The position numbers and the translations under genes are program-made. 26,532 bases of DNA from a virus, in the IMG/VR virus record IMGVR_UViG_3300041585_000117, positions 1 to 26,532 of that record. The stretch is one strand, 5' to 3'. This document shows, piece by piece, positions 46-25,279 of this stretch (the stretch's first letter is position 1; each line of letters begins with the position of its first letter). The notes below the pieces were generated by a model, which was given only the letters and a program-made list of their open reading frames with translations, was not told where the DNA came from and searched no databases.

Positions 46-1398
46 TTACGCGACCGCAGGCAAGATGGGTATCACGCGCTTTTTGGGGGTTTCAGGGACA
101 CCATGAACCTGCCCGAAGATGTCTTTGCGGTCCTGGCGGAAATCGCCTTCGATATAAACAGGAACATAGCCTGTCAAAAACTCAATGGCGGCAGCAAAGA
201 AAACAATGTTGTCCGAGTAGGCGTTATTGCAAGTCGTCTCCCAAAGATCGCCTTCAAGAAACATGCAAGCACCAGCGCAGATCTGAAGCACGGGGCAGGT
301 CTTGCATTCGCTTCGGTGCGACCAGTGGGTAGAGGTGTTGAGCTTCACGCTGGCAAGGTCTGCGACCGTACCAATCAAGTGGCTTTGCCCGTTTGGCGCG
401 ACGCCCTTGGAGCTGACGTTTTGGCAAGTCATTACCTGGCCTTTTAAGTCCACCGCAATGGCGTCGTTTCTGTCCATGCCGCACTTTTGACCTAGCGCGC
501 TGGAGGGCCGCTGCATTTTCAAGCTCTCTAAAAAGCCAGCGATCTTGCTGTGGCCTAAATCAAAATTTTTAGCCAGTCCACTGCGCAGTTCAGAAAACGC
601 TTGCGTGCGGTATCCCATGTGTTCGTCGGGTTTCAGGGACGCCCCCACACCGCCTTGGTCATACGCATCAACAAAGCTGCCCTCACCGATATTGACGTTT
701 TCGTCTCCCGTGAGGTCAACAAAGAATTTATTGATTGCTGCTCGGCTGGAATTCTCACGGTTAAGCATGGCGTTAAAGCTAATTCTCCCCAGCGGTGCCA
801 GCCGTTGGTACAGATCAAGAATGGCTGCTCGCACTGCAGGCTCATCCAGCGGGTCAGGGCCGCGCACATGTTGACCTGGCCCATCGTGGCTGATACCAAC
901 ACCAAACTCCAACGCCACCAACCAGTCGTTGATCTCAGGCGTAAGCAGTGAGCCGTTGGTGATAACCGAGAGCACTGCCTGCGGATATTTCACGCGGATC
1001 GCTTCGGCCAGAGGCTTTAAAGTCTTCCAATAAACGAAAGGCTCACCGCCCCAGAACTCCACTTTTTCAGGAGGCGTTGTCACCCATTCATTTAACCCCG
1101 ACAAAAACGGCTCAATGTCGTTTTTATTGGTTTCGCCTGCGCGGGGCACAAAGCGCTGAGAGCAGTATTCGCACTCGTAGTTGCAAGACAGCCCCAGAGA
1201 AATCTTTAGCAGGCGCGGCGTGACCTTGCCCGCCGGGGTGTCAACGCTTGTGGTGACTACCGCTTGGTACTTTGAACTGGTTTGAATTCCTTCCACCAGA
1301 TCCCGCCCCTGCTCATCCGTAAGCCTTGATGTGTGGGGGTCGTAATTCAAAACAATACGGTCGTCGGTACCGGGTTTGATGGCTGTAATTTTGAACAC
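46..1398 (-). CDS. Radical SAM/SPASM peptide-modifying enzyme
   Basis: A 450-residue radical SAM enzyme. Seen: the SAM-cluster motif CxxxCxxC at C72, C76 and C79, followed by the GGEP motif near 117-120. The C-terminal half has all seven SPASM cysteines in canonical spacing: C306, then x13-G-x4 to C325, then C365-x2-C368-x5-C374-x3-C378, and C390. The family generates a 5'-deoxyadenosyl radical, and SPASM members with two auxiliary [4Fe-4S] clusters usually modify peptides (thioether links, formylglycine and related chemistry). The start is GTG, inside the overlap TAGTG with the preceding oxygenase gene, with an AAGG Shine-Dalgarno about 8 nt upstream. It is the last gene of a four-gene coupled cassette after a Cys-rich Hint-domain fibre gene, so I infer that its substrate is a virion protein. 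No RiPP precursor-recognition domain is obvious in the N-terminal 64 residues. The family call is firm; the substrate is unknown. Confidence 0.93.
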   Translation of the reverse strand: MFKITAIKPGTDDRIVLNYDPHTSRLTDEQGRDLVEGIQTSSKYQAVVTTSVDTPAGKVTPRLLKISLGLSCNYECEYCSQRFVPRAGETNKNDIEPFLSGLNEWVTTPPEKVEFWGGEPFVYWKTLKPLAEAIRVKYPQAVLSVITNGSLLTPEINDWLVALEFGVGISHDGPGQHVRGPDPLDEPAVRAAILDLYQRLAPLGRISFNAMLNRENSSRAAINKFFVDLTGDENVNIGEGSFVDAYDQGGVGASLKPDEHMGYRTQAFSELRSGLAKNFDLGHSKIAGFLESLKMQRPSSALGQKCGMDRNDAIAVDLKGQVMTCQNVSSKGVAPNGQSHLIGTVADLASVKLNTSTHWSHRSECKTCPVLQICAGACMFLEGDLWETTCNNAYSDNIVFFAAAIEFLTGYVPVYIEGDFRQDRKDIFGQVHGVPETPKKRVIPILPAVA

Positions 1399-2024
1399 TA
1401 TTTGGCCTTAATAGGAGTGAAAATCTTATTCATGTCATGCCCTATGACTTTGTATTCCAAGCCAGCAATGACTCGCGCAAAAGGGCTTGGGTCGGTTTCA
1501 TGCAGCACGTAACTTGGGAAAATCACGGCCATGCCGGGGCGCACAGCAATCCGATGCAAAGGTGCCCGATACGGAAACCCACGAACCGCTGGGTCAATCA
1601 AGATCAAGTCAGCAGCAGGCTCATCTGGCGACTCGCCAGTCCGCAAGTAGATAGACACCACCACATCAGCGTCAAAGTGCGTGTGAGGAACAATCCGCCC
1701 ACCCGCCAAGTAAGAGCGGGCAAAGCCGCGCACCGCCAGTTCTCTCTGGTCGGCTGCAGGATCTTGTAAACCAGATCCAAGGAACTGCCGCACAGCTGCG
1801 GTGATTGGATCTAGCAAATAAGCGCGGTCCGCAAGCGTTAGATCGGCCAACATGTCAGGACGCGAAATCGTGCGACGTCCCGTGCGCTTGGCAAAGTCTG
1901 CGTCATGCATAGCGCGATTAACGTGATAGTCATGTGAAGCAACTGCAATGCGTTCAAGAGCTTCTGGGTCATGTGGCAAATCAATCATTGCCACCGGGGT
2001 AGAAAAAATCTGGGTGACTTGCAT
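1398..2024 (-). CDS. 2-oxoglutarate/Fe(II)-dependent oxygenase
   Basis: A 208-residue double-stranded beta-helix oxygenase resembling the roughly 200-aa putative 2OG-Fe(II) oxygenase family (TIGR02466-like). Seen: H114 and the HxD pair H116/D118, a distal H175 in a VLHETDPS context, and R184, which fits the 2-oxoglutarate-binding Arg. The segment before H175 (PGMAVIFPSYV) is the usual strand leading to the distal His. Family enzymes hydroxylate protein side chains or small molecules, using O2 and 2-oxoglutarate. The ATG lies 2 bp after the stop of the preceding gene, and the gene's own TAG shares one base with the GTG of the radical SAM gene, so the three are probably translationally coupled. 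Pairing with a SPASM enzyme behind a tail-fibre gene suggests modification of a structural protein, but this is inference. Halogenase or other oxidation chemistry cannot be excluded, although D118 favours hydroxylase over halogenase. Confidence 0.88.
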   Translation of the reverse strand: MQVTQIFSTPVAMIDLPHDPEALERIAVASHDYHVNRAMHDADFAKRTGRRTISRPDMLADLTLADRAYLLDPITAAVRQFLGSGLQDPAADQRELAVRGFARSYLAGGRIVPHTHFDADVVVSIYLRTGESPDEPAADLILIDPAVRGFPYRAPLHRIAVRPGMAVIFPSYVLHETDPSPFARVIAGLEYKVIGHDMNKIFTPIKAK

Positions 2025-2026
2025 GT

Positions 2027-2953
2027 TTAAACCACAGACACCAAAACTTCATCGCAACCGGATATATTGCGAAACCCCACCTTGACCTTGAAAGACTCAC
2101 CGCTTTGCATGCCAGCAGATGAGACACGAAACGAGGCCAAGCCGCCGACCGACTTGACGCGCCGCAGGGGAAGCACACCGCCTGTTTCTTCTAGGAAAAT
2201 CGTCTGCTCGCCGTGCGGGTAGAGCGCACCTTCCGAGTCAACTACCTGCACATCTACCACCTTACTTGTGTCTGCAGCCATAGACACACTCGGGGTCAGA
2301 ACTTTTAGAGTCGGCAGACAGTGCGACATAACGCCAACAGGCGGTGCTTCGTCTAGCTGGGTCCAGCTTTCCAAGTTAGACGAAAAGTGACATTCAGCGC
2401 TGTTGCGGACTAAAAATGAGCACTCATCAAACGCAGCGCCAGTGTGAGGAACCGCCACTAACACGGGCCACATATCGGCTGACATTGCGCGAGCAAAGCG
2501 TAAATCACGCTTGGATTGGTAGCTCTGCTCATAAACATTGAACGGCGCCAAAGGAACGCCTTTTTCGCTAAGCGCCAGTACATAAATCCCTGGACCGTCG
2601 CGTTCTGCTGAACCCAAAAAGCTATTTGTGCGTTTGAGGGTAGACACGCCAAGAAATTGAATTTTGATACCGGCCAGATCAGGAGAAAGCCATTCACCAG
2701 ACCACAGCTCATTGGCAAAGCTGTATGTAGAAGCCGGAAGACTGTCGCTACTGGTAATCAAAGCGTCCAGCAAAGCAGGAGCCTTGACATCAAAGTCAGC
2801 GGCTTCGACTTCTGCCGTCTTGAAGAACACGGCTCTCACTCGCTCTGCGCTGATGTCAATACGAATATGAATGGGGGTAAAAAACCCACGGCCCTGAGTA
2901 GCGTTTGGCACTTTGGCATCAAGCCCGCTCCAACGCAGTAGTTGTTGCTTCAT
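2027..2953 (-). CDS. Unknown protein with C-terminal Ig-like domain, tail-fibre cassette
   Basis: A 308-residue protein I do not recognise. The last 80 or so residues look like a bacterial Ig-like (Big_1-type) beta-sandwich: a V-D-V-Q-V-V-D-x-x-G strand, a G-G-V-L-P-L turn and a final V-K-V strand. The N-terminal 230 residues look soluble and globular, without a signal peptide or membrane segment. The open frame extends to a GTG at 2962 that overlaps the preceding TGA, but that GTG lies inside the Shine-Dalgarno AAGGAG (2962-2967), which is 8 nt from the ATG at 2953. I therefore choose 2953. The gene sits between the Hint-domain fibre gene and the 2OG oxygenase, all tightly packed. Plausible roles are a secondary fibre or decoration protein, or a scaffold for the modification enzymes. 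Neither role can be proved from sequence. Confidence 0.8.
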   Translation of the reverse strand: MKQQLLRWSGLDAKVPNATQGRGFFTPIHIRIDISAERVRAVFFKTAEVEAADFDVKAPALLDALITSSDSLPASTYSFANELWSGEWLSPDLAGIKIQFLGVSTLKRTNSFLGSAERDGPGIYVLALSEKGVPLAPFNVYEQSYQSKRDLRFARAMSADMWPVLVAVPHTGAAFDECSFLVRNSAECHFSSNLESWTQLDEAPPVGVMSHCLPTLKVLTPSVSMAADTSKVVDVQVVDSEGALYPHGEQTIFLEETGGVLPLRRVKSVGGLASFRVSSAGMQSGESFKVKVGFRNISGCDEVLVSVV

Positions 2954-2958
2954 GATGC

Positions 2959-4383
2959 TCACTCCTTATTTGTTTTTGACTCAACGGCAATGCCGTTGGC
3001 AAAGAAAGTTCGGTCGCCATCAAGCTCAACTGACATCAAAACTTCAGCTGCCTCACCAATCAAACGCTCGATTGATTCGACGCAGATGCGGCCGTTTTCA
3101 GTGATGAGGGTGTCGCCTACTTCGACGTTGCGCAGTAAGTTGGCGTCAATGCCAATATCGGGCGTCTCCAATCGCTTTTGAGCCAACCACAGAGCGTAGT
3201 AGTCGCGGTCTACTGCCAGCCAGCCGTCTGGACTTCTAAGCAGGTGCTCACGGGTCATGCGCAAAGTTTGATTAATCAAAACTGTTACTTCTCCAGGCTC
3301 AACTGGACAAACAATAGGCTCCAGTACTGTGGCGACGCCACCAAAAGCCGTGCGAACCTGATCCCCAGCAACCATTTCGTCAACGCGCTTTCGTGCGCCG
3401 TTAGCCATGGTTAGCATCGTGTCCAATGGAAAGCAACAAGTGCCGCAGTTACAGTTACAGTCGCAATTGACCGAGTAAGAAATCTGGTAATAGGTACGAA
3501 GTTGATGCCTCCCATCGCCTGAGTCAAAAACTTCAGTTCCCAATGTCTGCACATGGTTGCAGTTGACGTTGCCGCAATTAGTGCGAATCCCGGTATCACG
3601 GGCTGCACCTTGCGCCCCAAGCACAGTTGTTCGCAAAGCAAACTTGTCATGCAGCCAGCCGTAGTTAGCCGTCCATACTTGACCAGCGTTGTTGGCGTAC
3701 ATATCCCAGTTGCCATCGCTTTTCAGAAAACCCATCATGTTGCCGTTGACGTGCAGCGAGCGAGTCACGTTGTCCGTGTCCTGCATCGTGATGGTCGGGG
3801 CTGTGTTCTGAATCGTGAGATTCCCAGTCATCGTGTCGCCGGTCTTGGCCACGCGGCTGGACAGATCAATGTTCACCGTGGAGTTGCCACTCGCATCCGG
3901 CCCCGCACCATTGACCGATCGCACAAAGGCTGTCGAGTCATACCCGTCTAACTTGTCAGCGTCCACCGCCTTGGCCGTGATGCCCAAATATGTCGTGTTG
4001 TGGTTGTGCGCGCTTGATGCAAAGGCAGTCGCTTGCTGGCCATCAAGCAGATCGGCATCCAAGCCAGTTCCTGCGCCATCAACCGTCAGCAGCTTGGCCA
4101 AGACATCGGCAGCCGTGTAGGTGGCGGCGTTGAGCTTGGCTGCGAACTGTGTGTCTATGCCACTTACCAGGTCCATGATCAGACGCCAGCTGTCTGGGTT
4201 GGTGCTGATCAATTGGTACAGCTTTAATTGGTCGCTTCGGTAGCACAGCATTCCCACCTGTTGATTGATGGTTGGGAACGTTGTGCCGCTGTTGCATGAA
4301 ATTGCTGTCTTGTCGTTGTTCAGTATCTCGATGAGCGAATCCGAGAGCGTTCTGGACGACGGAATGTCGGTGAAGTTTTGCAT
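2959..4383 (-). CDS. Tail fibre protein with Cys-rich peptide and C-terminal Hint autoprocessing domain
   Basis: A 474-residue phage fibre protein. The N-terminal two thirds show fibre-type modules: two copies of the LDxDxLDG motif (about residues 108-121 and 141-153), a TGDTMTGNL segment near 181-189, and Gly/Asn-rich strands. A short cysteine cluster follows, C307, C309, C311, C313, C316 and C317, with C270 and C275 further upstream. From C317 a Hint (hedgehog/intein) domain begins: C-F-P at 317-319, the N-G and G-D turns (about 328 and 340), a TxxH block-B motif (T377, H380), and a terminal F-F-x-N-G strand at 460-464. Family knowledge: the first Cys undergoes N-S acyl shift and cleaves or transfers the upstream chain. 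The usual terminal His-Asn is missing and no C-extein follows, so splicing is unlikely. The ATG directly abuts the TAG of the 455-aa gene, with AGGGG about 7 nt upstream. Confidence 0.85.
   Translation of the reverse strand: MQNFTDIPSSRTLSDSLIEILNNDKTAISCNSGTTFPTINQQVGMLCYRSDQLKLYQLISTNPDSWRLIMDLVSGIDTQFAAKLNAATYTAADVLAKLLTVDGAGTGLDADLLDGQQATAFASSAHNHNTTYLGITAKAVDADKLDGYDSTAFVRSVNGAGPDASGNSTVNIDLSSRVAKTGDTMTGNLTIQNTAPTITMQDTDNVTRSLHVNGNMMGFLKSDGNWDMYANNAGQVWTANYGWLHDKFALRTTVLGAQGAARDTGIRTNCGNVNCNHVQTLGTEVFDSGDGRHQLRTYYQISYSVNCDCNCNCGTCCFPLDTMLTMANGARKRVDEMVAGDQVRTAFGGVATVLEPIVCPVEPGEVTVLINQTLRMTREHLLRSPDGWLAVDRDYYALWLAQKRLETPDIGIDANLLRNVEVGDTLITENGRICVESIERLIGEAAEVLMSVELDGDRTFFANGIAVESKTNKE
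2962..2967 (-). promoter_or_regulatory. Shine-Dalgarno AAGGAG deciding the start at 2953
   Basis: AAGGAG on the minus strand stands exactly 8 nt before the ATG at 2953. It overlaps the alternative GTG at 2962, which therefore has no ribosome site of its own. It lies just before the stop of the upstream Hint-fibre gene, as expected for coupled translation. Confidence 0.75.
2962..3435 (-). other. Hint (hedgehog/intein-type) domain, residues 317-474 of the fibre protein
   Basis: About 158 residues starting at C317. The N-terminal block reads C-F-P-L-D-T followed by a hydrophobic strand, N-G, V-D-E-M and G-D, as in bacterial Hint domains. Block B has T377-x-x-H380. The C-terminal strand ends F-A-N-G-I-A-V-E-S rather than the H-N-(C/S/T) needed for Asn cyclisation. 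I infer hedgehog-like one-ended processing: a thioester at the C316-C317 bond, then hydrolysis or attack by a nucleophile. The domain call is good; activity is unproven. Confidence 0.78.
3433..3465 (-). other. Cys-rich peptide CDCNCNCGTCC next to the Hint scissile bond
   Basis: Residues 307-317 of the fibre protein alternate Cys with Asp, Asn or Gly. The encoding DNA contains a short TGTAAC repeat. After Hint cleavage this peptide would become the C-terminus of the fibre. It is a candidate for metal binding, disulphide cross-linking or modification by the radical SAM/SPASM enzyme three genes downstream. These roles are inferred from position and composition only. Confidence 0.7.
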
Positions 4384-5751
4384 CTAGTACCCCTGTGCAA
4401 TCCAAGTGAAGGAGCCGCTCACGCGTGCGGCGAAAGTGTTTTCAAGAACGGCCGTAAAGCCGGTGGTCGTGACGGAACCTATGAGGCGTGGAATGGCCAC
4501 TGCAGTGCCGCCCTTGTGCGTCACAGTGACTTCGGGCGGGACACGAAAGCTGCGAGTAAAACCAATCACAGCGCCGAGAGCAGCATCGGTGATCTGGGCC
4601 GTGCCTCGGTCAAAGATGTCGGGGACATCCACAGTCACGCGCAAGGCGTCGATGAAGCCGCGATCAGAATTGCGTGATTTGAGGATGGCCCTAAAAAGCG
4701 CTCGGCGGTAGGTGTAGTCACCTTGGATGAAGTCACGAAAATCCGTGTACCCCGGCGGGTGCCCAGCGCTCACGATGTTGGCGAAGTCCTGCTCTGTGAT
4801 CTCGGCCGTGGAAATGATCATGTCGCTGATCACGCCATTGGCATGCCGCCGGTACTGCTCAGCCAAGAGCAAGGCTTCACTGGCGTTGATACGCAGCGCA
4901 CGCTTAAGAGCGTCCGTTACGCCAAGTCCCTCGTTGATCAATCGCCGGTAGGCCACCGTGCGTCCAATGGCCTCACCCATAGCCACGGCTTCAGCTACCC
5001 GCTTGATCGACTGTCGCGCCGCTTTATCGCTCGCTCCAAATGCTTCGGCAACCGGTTTTTGAACCTGCTTGGCACCCTGATCGCTGAGTGCTAAGTTTTC
5101 GCTGATCCGAAGCACGAATGCGATCAGGTCGGCATAGGTTTCAGCAAAGCTCAGTCCCTCGGTGATGCGCTTGGTGACCACTCGATCAAGGTCATCGCCA
5201 ACGCCAAAAGCTTCTGAGTTGGCTTTGCCAATCACTCGCCCTGAAAACTCTGCAATCGGCAGCCCCTCAGCAAGGCGCTTGATACCGCTTTGACGGAGCA
5301 CATCTGCCAGCGATAGGCCCTCGGTAGCAAGCTTGGTGACCGTGCGCGAAAGATAATCGGCTGACTGAAAGGCTTCTTGCGCGGCCTTGCGACTGGCCTT
5401 GGAGACGCCTTCGGTCATGGCCAAGCTCTCGACAAATCGCAGGACGTAGGCGATCAGGTCTGAGTAGGTTTCGGAAAATCCAAAAGTCTCCGACTCGCAC
5501 AACATGAACTGCCGTTTGAGGTTCTCTGCGACCAAGAGCGACTCATTTGATCGCTTTGTCCACTGTCGCCCCGTTGCCTCTGTGAACGCAAGCGTCACAG
5601 CAACGGCAATGCTGTAAACCGCAGGGTACGCCGTTGTCCACGACTTACCGGCACTCGCACTGGCCCAAGTAAAACTTGCGTTTGCCCAGGTGTAGCTCGC
5701 GCCCTGCAGCTCGGTGACCGTCACCGTATCAGGTGTCACCGCCTCTAGCAT
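4384..5751 (-). CDS. Tail protein with 18-residue helical repeats and lectin-like C-terminus
   Basis: A 455-residue structural protein. Residues 70-303 are a regular repeat: glutamates starting the pattern E-[AGS]-[LFV]-x-[FLVA]-[AGS]-[DE] occur at 70, 88, 108, 126, 144, 162, 180, 198, 218, 236, 254, 274 and 292, that is every 18 or 20 residues. The composition is strongly helix-forming (Ala, Glu, Leu, Arg, Lys, no Pro runs). Two units (about 89-110 and 199-220) are near copies containing the ETY-x-DLIA core. The last 75 residues (R-S-F-R-V-P-P-E-V-T-V, then T-G-F and F-T-W-I-A-Q-G-Y) look like the H-type lectin or beta-sandwich end found on phage tail-tip proteins. It lies between a small tail protein and the Hint fibre, 5 bp after the former's stop. 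The inferred role is a fibre or spike component: a helical rod carrying a binding head. Confidence 0.8.
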   Translation of the reverse strand: MLEAVTPDTVTVTELQGASYTWANASFTWASASAGKSWTTAYPAVYSIAVAVTLAFTEATGRQWTKRSNESLLVAENLKRQFMLCESETFGFSETYSDLIAYVLRFVESLAMTEGVSKASRKAAQEAFQSADYLSRTVTKLATEGLSLADVLRQSGIKRLAEGLPIAEFSGRVIGKANSEAFGVGDDLDRVVTKRITEGLSFAETYADLIAFVLRISENLALSDQGAKQVQKPVAEAFGASDKAARQSIKRVAEAVAMGEAIGRTVAYRRLINEGLGVTDALKRALRINASEALLLAEQYRRHANGVISDMIISTAEITEQDFANIVSAGHPPGYTDFRDFIQGDYTYRRALFRAILKSRNSDRGFIDALRVTVDVPDIFDRGTAQITDAALGAVIGFTRSFRVPPEVTVTHKGGTAVAIPRLIGSVTTTGFTAVLENTFAARVSGSFTWIAQGY

Positions 5752-5756
5752 ATCGA

Positions 5757-6203
5757 TCAGCTCATGGTGAAGGTAAAGACTGCGGTCAAGCTGTCATCCG
5801 CACCTTTGTTGACCACGGGGAAGACCACGCGATCGAACATGATCCCAGCGGTGGCGGCGTTGAATACGCCAGCCTCGGTGATTGCACCCGTGGCGTCACC
5901 GACCACAAAGTCGGCACTGAATGTCAACGTTTTGGTGCCCGCCGTGTGCGCGTAAGTGGCTGCGTTTCGGTCCAGCTCAGTTACCAGCGCCGACTGCGTA
6001 GACGCGGCAGCCGTGGTGCCAGTGCCCAAGGCAATAAAGCCCATCACGGACGGCCTAGATGCGGATTTTCCGATCGCGTCGGCAATGAAATCAAAGCCAA
6101 CGTTGACGATGATGTTGTCCTGATGGACAGTTTCAACCTCGCCAGTCGCTCGGCGCACGATGAGGGTCATCGCGCCGTGAAGTTGCATGTTTTCTTGGAT
6201 CAT
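5757..6203 (-). CDS. Small phage tail/fibre-associated structural protein
   Basis: A 148-residue beta-rich protein of the kind often found directly after the J protein in lambda-like phages of beta-proteobacteria. Recognisable features are the central L-G-T-G-T-T segment near residue 60, a strand pattern at 96-125 (TLTFSADF, then ITEAGVFNA), and a final alternating hydrophobic strand. It has no signal peptide or membrane segment. The ATG at 6203 has a GAGG-type Shine-Dalgarno about 7 nt upstream. The gene begins a new group after the terminator-like hairpin at 6242-6277, and the repeat protein follows after 5 bp. It is probably a tail-tip accessory protein or fibre adaptor; the exact role is unknown. 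Confidence 0.75.
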   Translation of the reverse strand: MIQENMQLHGAMTLIVRRATGEVETVHQDNIIVNVGFDFIADAIGKSASRPSVMGFIALGTGTTAAASTQSALVTELDRNAATYAHTAGTKTLTFSADFVVGDATGAITEAGVFNAATAGIMFDRVVFPVVNKGADDSLTAVFTFTMS

Positions 6204-6315: not shown

Positions 6316-9300
6316 TTAATACAGCCGCAAGCTTGTGAAACCGCCGAGCGGCGCAAACGGAGCGCTTGCAGAGCGCACCTCGCCTCCCATGCGTCCAGCA
6401 AACAAGCGCCGCTCCGTCGTGGTCTGACACACGCCAAGGCAAATACGGTCTGTGTCCGCAACGGCAAGCGGAACCATCACGCGACGAGAAAGCTGGTCTT
6501 CTAAAAAAAAGGCTCCGGTGCTTGCGTCATAGCCCACGCTCAGCGAGGTGCCTGCACCACTTTCACCACTTTCACCACTTTCACCACTCTCACCAGCTTC
6601 GCCACCCTCACCACTTGCGCTCCAGATCACGCAAGTGGTGATCTCGGTGGGTATGAACCAAAACGACGTGTGAAAGAGCGCAGGTACGTTCACGCTCCAT
6701 GCCACCCGCGTGGTGTCCTTGACCATGAGGCCATCGCCATAGCGGCCCGCCGCGTATGCCGCGCCCGCCGCTTGACTGGATACGGGATTGCCCAAACCAG
6801 CGGTCGATCCGTTGAGCCGCCAGCCGTAGATCTCTCCGGCCTGAAGCGCATCCTCCCGGGCAATTTGGAGCCTAGCGTCTACGTTGGCAATGGCACCGTC
6901 ATTGGCCCACTGGCGCTGAGCGGCCTCACTACTCCACGGAAAGTTCGAAGCCAGCCACGTCGTGCGGTCATCACTGGACGCGCCCAAGCTGCTCTGCAGC
7001 GTGTTCTGGGCCCGAATGGGGGACACCAAATCGACCTCAAAGAGGTACTCTGCCGTCTGCGCGCCCGTGGTCATGCGCAGTACGTTGCGACCATTGACAG
7101 ACGCCACAGATGCAAAGTGCTTGGTGCCCGGAAATCCCAAGGCCTGCTGATCGCGCTCCAAGATCAGGTTAGCGTTTTGCGGCTGGGCCACCACGGTGGA
7201 GACAAAGCTGGGGACGTCGCTGTAAATGCCCGGCGAGGCAGTGGCCTTGATCCAGAACGTGCGCTCCCCGTCAAAACCTGCGGGCAGTGTGTAGCTCGTC
7301 GACTTGACCTCGGCCACGAAGAGCGAAGCATCCCAAGCCGCCCCCTCGCGCAACTCATAGCCCACCACTTCAGGCTCGGGACTGGGTTGCCAGCGGAACT
7401 CCAGCCGATTCGCCGACTGCACCACATCGAACTGGCGCACGGTCGAGGGTGCCAGCAAGGTCAGCACAAAAGTGGTCACGTGGGCGCTGTAGTTTCCGGA
7501 GGTATCGATCCCTCGTATGTGATACGGGTACTGCCCTGCCGCGCTCTGGTCGTGGACCATCTGGGTCGCGGCGGTCTTGGCCACCAACTGGGCGTTGTCC
7601 CAACCAGGCCCCACCCGCACCTCGTAGCCTGACAGATCGGCGTCCAGAAGCTCATCCCACTGAAGGAGCAGGTCCGACATCCGGCGCTGAACCAAAAAGC
7701 CCGTGACGTCGGACGGCGGAAGCGTTTTCCCAAGCACCGTAGCGCTAAGGGTCGCCGGCACGCTTTCCTTGCGCGTGATGCCAATGGCCCGTAGGCTGAA
7801 CTCGTACTCGCCTTCCTGCGCGTCACGGATTTCGGCGTAGTTGGCGCTGGTCAGCGGTAGGCTCACGAAGTTGCCGCCCCTGACCCGGTACGACAGTCGA
7901 TATGCGATCGCAGCTTGCACCTCCGACCAGGACACTTGCACCAGAACCTGCGCCTGGTCCTTGACGCGGTAAAGGCTCTCTTGCACGGCAAGCCCGGTGG
8001 GTGTCGCCGGCACATCCGAAAGGACCGTGATCGATCGTGGCTGAAGCGCTATGCCCTCCTCAATCGCGGCGTACTTGCTCGGGTTATGAGCCAGGGCCGT
8101 GACTTCATACTCACCCGGATCACGCTCGGCGACAGCGACCACCCGAAAAAGTTGGGCCTCAATGATCGAGGAAGCCAACACCCAGATCGCATCCGTCTGC
8201 GGAACCAGGCTGAACGGGATCGTCACCGTCAAGGTTCGGCCTGAAATCGGTCCGAGCATTCGCTCTTCAACGGTGCCGTTGGGCAAGATCACTGAGAGCC
8301 GCCAAGGCAGGTCCGCCGGCAGGTCTTGGTCCAGCGTGACGGTGCGGGCAGTAGCCGCAGCAATCCGGCCCCCCAGTCGCATGCCGCCACGCACCGGGTC
8401 CGCCACCTTGATGACATCCCCCGGGCGCACCACGGCCCCTTCCAAACCCGTGCGAAAAGTGACAATTTCTGACTCGGACTGCTCGGAGTACAAAAGCCAC
8501 TTGCCCACGCGGTGAGCCTGGCCTCGGGAGGTGCATCCCAAAGCGATCACCTCGGCCTGCACGATGCCGTATCGAGCGATACCGGCTGCGTCCTCGACGT
8601 ACTCGACCTTTTGCCGATAGAAGTCCTGCGGATCGTTCCAGGTGACCAGCGCCACGGTGTGCCGGGCCTTGGCGGACGAGCCTTGGTAGGCGAACTCACC
8701 GTCGATCACGTTGCCAGGGGCGAATTGGTAGACCGGATCCACCGGCGCGTCCTGCGTGACCGTGATCGCCCCACCCGACCAATACACCATGCCCCGGAAA
8801 ATCGAGGCCATGTCCTGAACGACCTTGTAGGCCTGCTCACGCGTTTGCAGGTACAGGTTGCAGGTAAAGCGCGGCTCGAGCCTACCGAGTCCGTCGGGAA
8901 CGAGTTGATCGCAATACTGAGCCACCCGATACAGCGCCCACTTATCAACCTGCGCCTCAGGGATATAGCTCCCCAGCCCGTAGCGAGTGCTCGTGACCAG
9001 GTCATAGAAACACCAGGCCGGGTTATCCGTCCAGGCGATCTTGAAGGTGCCGTCCCAGACTCCGACATAGGCCCGCGTGGCCGCGTCGTAGTTCGCCGGC
9101 ACCCGCACGCGCAGCAGCTTCATGTCATAGCTGCGGCGAGGGATGGAGGAGAACTGCGAGGCATCGACCCGCAGCGCCACCAGGGCGCTGTTGGGATACC
9201 TCAGCTTGCTCTCGATGACCTCGGTGTAGGACTCCAGATAGGTCTTGTTCTGGATGGCCGATGAGGTCGAATCGGCCGTGATGCGACGCACACGGATCTC

Positions 9301-9891
9301 CCAGGGGCCACTGCCCGTCAGGCGGACGTAATAGCCGCGCTGGTACTTGGTCGTGGTCTTGCCGGAGATCGTGTCGTTGACCACCTCCACGAAGCCGCCA
9401 CCGTTGACCTGAAGGTCGATCGCGAAATTGACCGAACTGCCGTTGAGGTCACCGTTGGTGGTGTCCTGGTTGGTCAGCTGGGGCACGCTCACCTTCACCC
9501 GTACCGCATCAATGTCTGGGTCGGTCACTGAGCGGACCACCGGGTGACTCGCCTTGACCTGCACGCCCACGGCGATTTCGCTCTCGACCGAGGCAAACCC
9601 GGGCACATAGCTTTGCTGCTGGGTGCCCGGCCGCGACTCCAGCGTTACGCCCGTGAAGTTGTATGAGCCGTCCTCGTTCTCAATGGGCGTGTCATCCAGA
9701 TACACCGACTTGAGCCCGTCCGCCAAGCCCTCGATCTCGCCTTCCGAGATCAGGTCCATCACGCGGGCAAAGGCCTTCGACCGCAGGCTGTCGGGTGCCT
9801 CTTGGGCGACACGGGCACTGCCGCCTCCGCCCTTGCCACCTCCGGCGCCAATGATCAGAGCGGTCGTCAGGTCGCTTCTGAGGTCGTTCAA
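6316..9891 (-). CDS. J: Tail tip host-specificity protein J
   Basis: A 1191-residue central tail-tip protein of the lambda gpJ family, which forms the tail hub and carries the receptor-binding end. The N-terminus has the typical G-A-G-G-G-K-G-G-G-G glycine patch and the ARVMDLISEGEIEGLADG segment. A large hub region follows, then fibronectin type III-like domains over roughly the middle third (V-P-A-T-P-T-G-L start; later P-S-D-V-T-G-F and D-T-S-G-N-Y). The C-terminus is a LamG/concanavalin-like fold interrupted by an ESG tandem repeat. The longer open frame to 10173 starts with Arg-rich non-conserved sequence that overlaps gene I and is rejected. The best start is TTG at 9891: it overlaps the I stop as TTGA and is preceded by GAGGTG about 5 nt away. 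The C-terminal domain is the likely receptor contact. Confidence 0.93.
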   Translation of the reverse strand: MNDLRSDLTTALIIGAGGGKGGGGSARVAQEAPDSLRSKAFARVMDLISEGEIEGLADGLKSVYLDDTPIENEDGSYNFTGVTLESRPGTQQQSYVPGFASVESEIAVGVQVKASHPVVRSVTDPDIDAVRVKVSVPQLTNQDTTNGDLNGSSVNFAIDLQVNGGGFVEVVNDTISGKTTTKYQRGYYVRLTGSGPWEIRVRRITADSTSSAIQNKTYLESYTEVIESKLRYPNSALVALRVDASQFSSIPRRSYDMKLLRVRVPANYDAATRAYVGVWDGTFKIAWTDNPAWCFYDLVTSTRYGLGSYIPEAQVDKWALYRVAQYCDQLVPDGLGRLEPRFTCNLYLQTREQAYKVVQDMASIFRGMVYWSGGAITVTQDAPVDPVYQFAPGNVIDGEFAYQGSSAKARHTVALVTWNDPQDFYRQKVEYVEDAAGIARYGIVQAEVIALGCTSRGQAHRVGKWLLYSEQSESEIVTFRTGLEGAVVRPGDVIKVADPVRGGMRLGGRIAAATARTVTLDQDLPADLPWRLSVILPNGTVEERMLGPISGRTLTVTIPFSLVPQTDAIWVLASSIIEAQLFRVVAVAERDPGEYEVTALAHNPSKYAAIEEGIALQPRSITVLSDVPATPTGLAVQESLYRVKDQAQVLVQVSWSEVQAAIAYRLSYRVRGGNFVSLPLTSANYAEIRDAQEGEYEFSLRAIGITRKESVPATLSATVLGKTLPPSDVTGFLVQRRMSDLLLQWDELLDADLSGYEVRVGPGWDNAQLVAKTAATQMVHDQSAAGQYPYHIRGIDTSGNYSAHVTTFVLTLLAPSTVRQFDVVQSANRLEFRWQPSPEPEVVGYELREGAAWDASLFVAEVKSTSYTLPAGFDGERTFWIKATASPGIYSDVPSFVSTVVAQPQNANLILERDQQALGFPGTKHFASVASVNGRNVLRMTTGAQTAEYLFEVDLVSPIRAQNTLQSSLGASSDDRTTWLASNFPWSSEAAQRQWANDGAIANVDARLQIAREDALQAGEIYGWRLNGSTAGLGNPVSSQAAGAAYAAGRYGDGLMVKDTTRVAWSVNVPALFHTSFWFIPTEITTCVIWSASGEGGEAGESGESGESGESGAGTSLSVGYDASTGAFFLEDQLSRRVMVPLAVADTDRICLGVCQTTTERRLFAGRMGGEVRSASAPFAPLGGFTSLRLY
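6555..6614. repeat. 9-bp tandem repeat in gene J (ESG repeat)
   Basis: About six and a half copies of a 9-bp unit (plus strand tttcaccac, with variants tctcaccag, cttcgccac and cctcaccac). On the coding strand it gives E-x-G triplets, mostly E-S-G, in an exposed loop of the C-terminal domain of J. The first three full units are identical, suggesting recent slippage. Confidence 0.85.
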
Positions 9892-10529
9892 AGGGTCACC
9901 TCGTCCACGTCGATCCCCGCGCTGATCACGGCAGAACCCACGATCAAGCGGCCATAGCCCACTGGCACTGGATGCCCTTGGGCGGTGGTGTTCACCGCCC
10001 CGTTGAAGCTGTAGCTGGGCTTGTTTTCGGGCCGCTCGGATGGATCGGGCGCCTTGGGCGTGGGCGCGATCATCTGGGCAACGCCACCCAGCACCATCGA
10101 AGTACCGATCGAATACAGAGTGGTCTGCGAAAGAAACGATCCGGCAGCGGCCCAGCCCATCGGATTCCACCAAGCGACGGCGATCAATGCCACGCCCAAC
10201 AGGATTTGACCCAGGCCATTGCTGCCGGCCCCGGAGACAACAGGCGCAATGGTGATGCGCTGCTGACCGGTGGGCTCGTGCAATTGGTCGAGCGAGAGCG
10301 CGTCTCGCCCAGCCAGCACGCGATAGCCGACACCGCGCTCGCCAGATGCGACCAGTTCGCGCTCAAAGGCGGGAAAGTTGGCGCACAGCGCGCGTACCGC
10401 CTCCGCAGCCGAGCCAATGGCCAAGCGGTGCCGGCGACCGAATCGCTTGGCGAGCTCACCGAGAAGAATGACCGTGACCATATTTAAGAACGTGGGTTGT
10501 GACTTTTTGCCAGTAGCCGCCGTAGACAT
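9888..10529 (-). CDS. I: Tail assembly protein I
   Basis: Up to 213 residues, lambda gpI family, required for tail-tip assembly with J, K and L. The conserved core begins V-T-V-I-L-L-G-E-L-A-K-R-F-G-R and continues with A-E-A-V-R-A-L and the H-E-P segment. A hydrophobic Gly/Ala-rich stretch lies around residues 97-150 (GLGQILLGVALIAVAWW and a later segment). The C-terminal 50 residues are the P-V-P-V-G-Y-G-R-L-I-V-G region seen in this family. The ATG at 10529 overlaps gene K by 74 bp with only a weak GAG site. The internal ATG at 10481 (197 residues) would start exactly at the conserved core and is an equally good choice. The stop overlaps the TTG start of J. Confidence 0.88.
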   Translation of the reverse strand: MSTAATGKKSQPTFLNMVTVILLGELAKRFGRRHRLAIGSAAEAVRALCANFPAFERELVASGERGVGYRVLAGRDALSLDQLHEPTGQQRITIAPVVSGAGSNGLGQILLGVALIAVAWWNPMGWAAAGSFLSQTTLYSIGTSMVLGGVAQMIAPTPKAPDPSERPENKPSYSFNGAVNTTAQGHPVPVGYGRLIVGSAVISAGIDVDEVTL

Positions 10530-24692: not shown

Positions 24693-24971
24693 GTGATCAA
24701 AAGTTTTCAACACAAAGGTCTGGAGCGGTTCTTTCGCCGAGGCGAGACCAAAGGCATCTTGGCCCAGTATGTGGGTCGAGTTCAACGGATACTGGACTTG
24801 CTAGACGACGCGGCGGACCCACAGCAGTTGAAGATTCCAGGCATGTTCTTGCATCCACTCAAGGGCGACCGGAAAGGCCAATGGGCCATGTCGGTTTCAG
24901 GGAACTGGCGCATCACATTCGCCTTTGATGGCGAGGACGTTATCGTTGTCAATCTGGAGGACTATCACTAA
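24693..24971 (+). CDS. higB: HigB-type toxin (RelE superfamily mRNA interferase)
   Basis: A 92-residue toxin of the HigB/RelE group, which cuts ribosome-associated mRNA. Seen: the N-terminal K-G-L-E-R-F-F-R-R-G near 8-17, a helix with V-G-R-V-Q-R-I-L-D-L-L, L-H-P-L-K-G-D-R-K-G (53-62), W-R-I-T-F-A-F-D-G (72-80) and the terminal V-N-L-E-D-Y-H. The start is GTG at 24693: an in-frame stop lies just upstream at 24687-24689, so no longer form exists, and no Shine-Dalgarno is present. The stop shares one base with the higA start. It runs opposite to the phage late genes and is cargo between the HNH and terS genes. Length and motifs look intact. Confidence 0.92.
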   Translation: MIKSFQHKGLERFFRRGETKGILAQYVGRVQRILDLLDDAADPQQLKIPGMFLHPLKGDRKGQWAMSVSGNWRITFAFDGEDVIVVNLEDYH

Positions 24972-25279
24972 TGGCTACTCATTCTTTGCGCGACCCCAAG
25001 CGTCGGCCAACGCACCCAGGCGCTCTTCTGCGTGAGGACGTTCTGCCTGCGCTCAAGATGACCCAGAAGGACTTTGCCGACTGGATCGGTGTGTCGCGGC
25101 TGAGCGTCTCAGAACTGATCAACGAGAAGCGCACGGTAACGCCGGACATGGCCATGCGTTTGGGCAAAGCCCTGGGCAATGGCCCACAAATTTGGCTGGG
25201 CATGCAGCAGACACTCGATCTGTGGGAACTGGCACAGCAAGACACTTACCAATCCATCAAGACGCTGGAACTCGTTTAA
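24971..25279 (+). CDS. higA: HigA-type antitoxin, HTH-XRE repressor
   Basis: A 102-residue antitoxin with an XRE/HTH_3 domain. It has the family signature H-P-G-A-L-L-R-E-D-V-L-P-A-L near residues 15-28, the helix-turn-helix around 30-56 (T-Q-K-D-F-A-D-W-I-G-V-S-R-L-S-V-S-E-L-I-N-E-K-R), and D-M-A-M-R-L-G-K-A-L-G, then W-L-G-M-Q-Q-T-L-D-L-W in the C-terminal part. It neutralises HigB and should bind the palindrome at 24644-24662. The TAATG overlap with higB couples translation. Its stop overlaps the HNH stop tail to tail (4 bp). Confidence 0.93.
   Translation: MATHSLRDPKRRPTHPGALLREDVLPALKMTQKDFADWIGVSRLSVSELINEKRTVTPDMAMRLGKALGNGPQIWLGMQQTLDLWELAQQDTYQSIKTLELV

Follow-up and report, generated by a model that had tools for sequence, protein, structure and literature searches.

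What is a run of closely spaced cysteines doing at the end of a phage tail fibre, and what is the role of a Hint domain that begins at the very next residue? Both questions are raised by a 26.5-kb viral record, referred to here in its whole length as the window. Its late operon lies on the minus strand and runs from the terminase genes to the tail. Adjoining the terminase genes is a gene pair (24693-25279, plus strand) that resembles, as judged by eye, a HigB/HigA toxin–antitoxin module. The fibre gene and its neighbours comprise the following features.

4384-6203, minus strand: two upstream tail genes (455 and 148 aa), kept beside CxC fibres.
2959-4383, minus strand: tail fibre protein of 474 aa with a C-terminal CxC run and Hint domain (open reading frame; PHROG tail-fibre matches, best 5e-9).
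3640-4383, minus strand: conserved fibre shaft, residues 1-248 (Hint-less IMG/VR relatives are up to 94% identical).
3466-3639, minus strand: variable tip module, residues 249-306 (relatives diverge past about residue 248).
3436-3465, minus strand: CxC run CDCNCNCGTC, residues 307-316 (matches the C-terminus of Hint-less relatives).
2962-3435, minus strand: Hint domain, residues 317-474, 158 aa, about 17 kDa (Pfam, alignment, model and fold comparison).
2027-2962, minus strand: 311-aa protein with a C-terminal Ig-like fold (structure model; weak Ig-like matches).
1398-2024, minus strand: 2OG-Fe(II) oxygenase-like protein (phrog_81, 9e-9; Pfam 2OG-FeII_Oxy_5 below cut-off).
46-1398, minus strand: radical SAM (rSAM)/SPASM enzyme of 450 aa (phrog_1802, 5e-62; SPASM TIGR04085 above cut-off).

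The 148-aa upstream protein matches phrog_5417 and a tail-fibre PHROG. Its 455-aa companion (4384-5751, minus strand) contains degenerate SEALxLAE-like helical repeats and has as best match phrog_12240, a family of unknown function, and the J-like tail-tip protein (6316-10173, minus strand) carries a short GES repeat, GESGESGESGESG, towards its C-terminus. Within the fibre, the tip module holds two NC dipeptides (C270 and C275); an NCBIfam match to a nucleotide pyrophosphatase lies far below cut-off and is a chance match. A chimera of assembly is thought unlikely, since the fibre stop codon overlaps the start of the 311-aa gene by four bases in the same operon. Homologues of the 311-aa protein stand between fibre and rSAM genes in many loci. 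The Ig-like assignment applies to the C-terminal half of this protein; matches for a fold of the whole chain were unconvincing.

The preliminary description, made from the letters of the window, had placed six cysteines at residues 307-317, with the last opening a Hint domain, and the reading frame of the fibre gene confirms this: cysteines occupy positions 307, 309, 311, 313, 316 and 317. Pfam matches to Hint_2, Hint and Vint start at residue 316 or 317, under the gathering cut-offs. The catalytic positions of the domain are these.

3433-3435, minus strand: C317, predicted Hint nucleophile, with the predicted scissile bond between C316 and C317 (alignment and superposition).
3244-3255, minus strand: block-B motif T377-R-E-H380 (His invariant in 21 aligned rows, Thr or Ser in most).
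2977-2982, minus strand: E468-S469 at the position of the terminal His-Asn (alignment with the HN-ending domains of loci L170, L188 and L194).

An AlphaFold model of the domain, for which 21 related Hint domains served as alignment input, has a pLDDT of 79, with core blocks above 90. Its fold compares well with BIL2 of Tetrahymena (6y75; VIA Z 20.2), the Clostridium thermocellum BIL (2lwy; 16.9) and hedgehog (1at0; 15.0), and model residue 18, which is C317, superposes on intein residue 1 and on hedgehog C258. The proposal of a Hint fold whose nucleophile directly follows the cysteine run is thereby borne out. A phmmer search of the PDB with the domain gave weak matches only (E 0.22), which the fold comparison later bore out. 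The domain has no close relative: identity to the aligned Hint domains is 18-28%, and an IMG/VR search with peptide patterns of the window Hint alone returned none, although a Hint profile search did find some. C317 is nevertheless invariant among the 21 aligned domains. Pairs of relatives' Hint domains give dN/dS values of 0.06-0.31; these domains are under purifying selection.

Class assignment is governed by the far end of the domain. The terminal His-Asn by which A-type BILs and inteins are recognized is replaced by E468-S469, and just five residues follow that position. Intein splicing is ruled out, because a domain that lacks both the terminal His-Asn and a C-extein cannot splice; as the preliminary description had anticipated, cleavage would at most be one-ended, as in hedgehog and B-type BILs. 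B-type BILs are defined by all Hint motifs minus the C-terminal one and perform N-cleavage (PMC7765530). The fibre domain shows this motif pattern, judged from the motifs themselves and not from a subfamily profile. With B-type BILs and the hedgehog Hog-Hint it shares the fold, the N-terminal cysteine nucleophile, the block-B T-x-x-H and the missing His-Asn, together with a predicted one-ended N-cleavage. It differs from them in standing at the C-terminus of a phage fibre, abutting a CxC run and being linked to an rSAM gene, and its cleavage is a prediction.

Relatives of the fibre separate the run from the Hint domain. A whole-fibre search of IMG/VR retrieved 59 relatives. Of the complete ones, nearly all lack a Hint and finish with tails such as NCNCNCNCCGC, NCNCNCACDCCC or NCNCDCNCC; the run is kept in this way by about 50 close relatives. 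In pairwise global alignments the last residue of Hint-less relatives falls at window positions 313-317 in 16 of 17 cases and at 320 in the other. The relative at locus L003, with a shaft 94% identical to that of the window, ends exactly at residue 316. Since these ends align at the predicted scissile bond, a cut between C316 and C317 would give the fibre its customary C-terminus again. The idea that the cysteine tail is owed to the Hint domain, or exposed only by it, finds no support: most relatives carry the tail at a plain stop codon. Judged from these comparisons, the cysteine run is older and more widespread than the Hint domain.

A survey of 83 distinct tails (69 Hint-less and 14 Hint forms; two are probably spurious reading frames) defines the junction more closely. 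In 58 of the 69 Hint-less tails the last cysteine is the final residue or the one before it. In the Hint forms, 14 distinct fibres besides that of the window, the Hint cysteine always stands 0-1 residues past the last cysteine of the run. The junction is therefore conserved, in lineages that are not all close kin. Asparagine precedes cysteine at more than 60% of tip-module sites, both in the run and upstream of it (61% of upstream tip cysteines in the 83 tails), against an asparagine background of 8.8%.

The factor that travels with the run is the rSAM gene, three genes downstream of the fibre in the window, which the preliminary description had left out of account. It is present in 18 of the 19 CxC-tailed fibre loci with at least 5.5 kb of downstream sequence, and a divergent radical-SAM homologue adjoins the fibre of the 19th (L059). 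A profile search with the rSAM enzyme alone yielded 80 loci in bacterial genomes. Of the 61 rSAM loci with enough upstream DNA, 48 encode, ahead of the enzyme and on its strand, a protein with a CxC tail or a CxCxCxC run; among the 13 misses, several are truncated, frameshifted or just off-motif (L093, L099, L117, L141). None of 932 control reading frames in rSAM-bearing bacterial loci has such a feature, scored as a CxCxCxC run or as CxCxC among the final 17 residues, so chance is excluded as a source of the CxC run. The rSAM-linked CxC proteins are otherwise of widely varying length (72-616 aa), and the co-occurrence spans at least two proteobacterial classes. One Rhodobacteraceae locus was examined in detail; it proved to be an operon of tail genes, with matches to fibre J and to long tail fibres.

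Hint domains were surveyed as well. A Hint profile search gave 68 viral loci, in 14 of which a CxC run immediately precedes the domain. The rSAM gene is found in 13 of these 14 (the contig of the last one ends) and in none of the other 54 (Fisher p 4e-13, a value inflated by relatedness, since the loci are mutually related and such counts overstate independent events). Locus L064 and most of L160-L213 were set aside as inteins or BILs in other genes, outside the system; L203 belongs to it. At L159 (4405-5520), one of the 54, a GCSGC-type cysteine-rich run stands ahead of a Hint domain in a locus where no rSAM-like reading frame was found. Overall, the rSAM gene accounts for the cysteine run better than the Hint domain does.

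Two sets of observations count against a strict coupling of enzyme, run and Hint. Loci of the Variovorax type (L126, L128, L138, L140, L142) have the same rSAM family and no CxC tail nearby; at L128 and L138 a short reading frame with a DCGC motif, possibly a non-phage RiPP-like precursor, precedes the rSAM gene. Providencia phage PSTNGR1 encodes a related C-terminal Hint without a cysteine run, and a radical-SAM search found no match in it, which indicates that the modules are separable. Homologues with a Hint domain but no cysteine run, which the preliminary description had named as counting against its reading, thus exist outside the system, in PSTNGR1 and in the 54 other viral Hint loci, which lack a CxC run. 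Among rSAM-adjacent fibres no exception occurs.

The enzyme itself carries the cysteines of its class, as follows.

1162-1185, minus strand: radical-SAM motif C72-x3-C76-x2-C79 (invariant in 12 rows).
229-483, minus strand: SPASM cysteines C306, C325, C365, C368, C374, C378 and C390 (all invariant in 12 rows).

The CX3CX2C motif and the SPASM cysteines are thus found in 12 of 12 aligned sequences, and the curated maturases nearest to all 12 include PapB and QhpD. For the window enzyme, PapB is the best NCBIfam match and QhpD the second, at scores far below the equivalog cut-offs (50.5 bits against 340 and 48.6 against 453), so that the likeness is a guide and not an assignment of reaction. PapB and QhpD form thioethers from cysteine to the side-chain carbons of Asp or Glu, QhpD doing so on a protein subunit (PMC9413430, PMC8172795). 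The ranthipeptide maturases PapB (freyrasin) and CteB (SCIFF) likewise combine a radical-SAM/SPASM enzyme with a cysteine-rich substrate having Asn or Asp neighbours; here, however, the C-terminal end of a virion structural protein would serve as substrate, and the motif is CxCxC instead of CX3D. QhpD, which cross-links Cys to Asp/Glu in a whole protein, the gamma subunit of quinohemoprotein amine dehydrogenase, differs in its substrate and in a quinone context that is absent here. These loci show one feature of RiPP-like systems, in that a gene for a maturase adjoins a substrate motif that recurs from locus to locus.

Of 125 rSAM loci, 81 have a relative of the 2OG-Fe(II) oxygenase close to the rSAM gene. 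Among Hint-bearing lineages this oxygenase was found in the window only, and a tie between it and the Hint domain is rejected on that ground. That it acts on the same fibre tip as the rSAM enzyme is speculation.

Together these data, drawn from sequences and models, suggest that phages chemically mature their fibre tips. The reading that we favour, and hold to be reasonably probable, is of a RiPP-like, rSAM-matured fibre tip whose Hint domain is a self-removing C-terminal extension. The mechanism would proceed as follows. (i) A dedicated maturation operon would have the fibre as its substrate, with the shaft and tip module as leader and the C-terminal (N)CxCxC run as core. (ii) The downstream radical-SAM/SPASM enzyme would modify the run. 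We infer that the most likely modification joins cysteine sulphur to carbons of neighbouring Asn or Asp residues, in thioethers like those made by PapB and QhpD. (iii) In the window phage, the Hint domain directly after the core would undergo an N-to-S acyl shift at C317, followed by hydrolysis of the bond between C316 and C317. (iv) This cleavage would restore the C-terminus that a stop codon gives to Hint-less relatives. A domain that restores the usual terminus resembles a self-removing follower or an assembly domain, and not a ligation device. Its task may be to hold the core open until the modification is made, to assist the assembly of the trimer or to set the timing of maturation.

Its place at the C-terminus of a fibre invites a different account, in which Hint serves the fibre trimer as an intramolecular domain for assembly or chaperoning, whether or not it is released once folding is complete, in a role comparable to that of the Peptidase_S74 tail-fibre domain. 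The coupling to CxC would then be positional only. The CxC-free Hint protein of PSTNGR1 fits this account, as do neighbouring fibres in the Rhodobacteraceae locus, which match long-tail-fibre families across their C-terminal ends. Yet close relatives with a 94% identical shaft manage without any such domain, and the position of all rSAM-linked fibre Hints at a CxC end is left unexplained; we regard this account as unlikely. Somewhat less credit is given to an unmodified tip, in which the run binds metal or forms disulphides, the rSAM enzyme modifies another tail component and the Hint domain is inactive or irrelevant. Metal binding by CxC runs is conceivable, in the manner of the His-rich T4 fibre tip, and the window enzyme scores far below the maturase cut-offs. 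Against this stand the recurrence of the rSAM–CxC pairing across classes and in proteins of such different size, the purifying selection on Hint domains and the invariance of their catalytic Cys and His. The suggestion that Hint leaves a reactive C316 thioester for cyclisation or covalent attachment to a virion protein or the cell surface is quite improbable: fold, missing His-Asn and a nucleophile adjoining a thiol-rich tail whose thiols could attack a thioester are all in place, but no conserved acceptor was found, and the Hint-less majority, whose same tail ends at a stop codon, cannot use such chemistry and does not need it.

Parts of the fibre-tip maturation system were already known as annotations. 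The phrog_1802 phage radical SAM proteins and a protein of Achromobacter phage JWF, annotated as a 'Hom_end-associated Hint family protein', are direct homologues, and JWF has the same gene order (fibre-Hint, one gene, rSAM). Hint-containing phage proteins are likewise recorded as annotations; those in the literature searched are inteins of terminase, replication or metabolic genes. Campylobacter phages carry many radical SAM genes, which have been interpreted as metabolic with no CxC link stated (PMC2853527). In the open-access literature we found no paper that links phage fibres, CxC tails and rSAM enzymes, no stated connection of rSAM, cysteine run and Hint, and no precedent for rSAM action on a phage tail. 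If the rSAM-matured tip is correct, a phage adsorption structure is matured by radical chemistry, virion proteins join small peptides and a single dehydrogenase subunit as substrates of rSAM maturases, and a large group of phage 'radical SAM' genes at present filed as 'other' gains a function. A maturase with an unusual CxCxC substrate is a possible yield.

A wider proposition is put forward tentatively, and we give it somewhat less than even weight: that in many proteobacterial phages an rSAM/SPASM cassette, often with a 2OG oxygenase, cross-links an Asn-Cys-rich tip, so that a hardened, RiPP-like element makes contact with the receptor, and that several lineages have independently put a self-removing Hint follower exactly at the core end. 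The trees also count for the favoured reading. The rSAM tree calls for at least four gains or losses of Hint; in it the window is grouped with 17 Hint-less rows and no further Hint bearer (support 97). In the Hint tree the window domain branches outside the main group of CxC-linked Hints. A common clade for all CxC-linked Hints is rejected, though only modestly and with long branches (p-AU 0.026). At one locus (L058, 8001-9077), three short CxC-tailed reading frames with differing tails lie together, as if fibre-tip cassettes had been duplicated.
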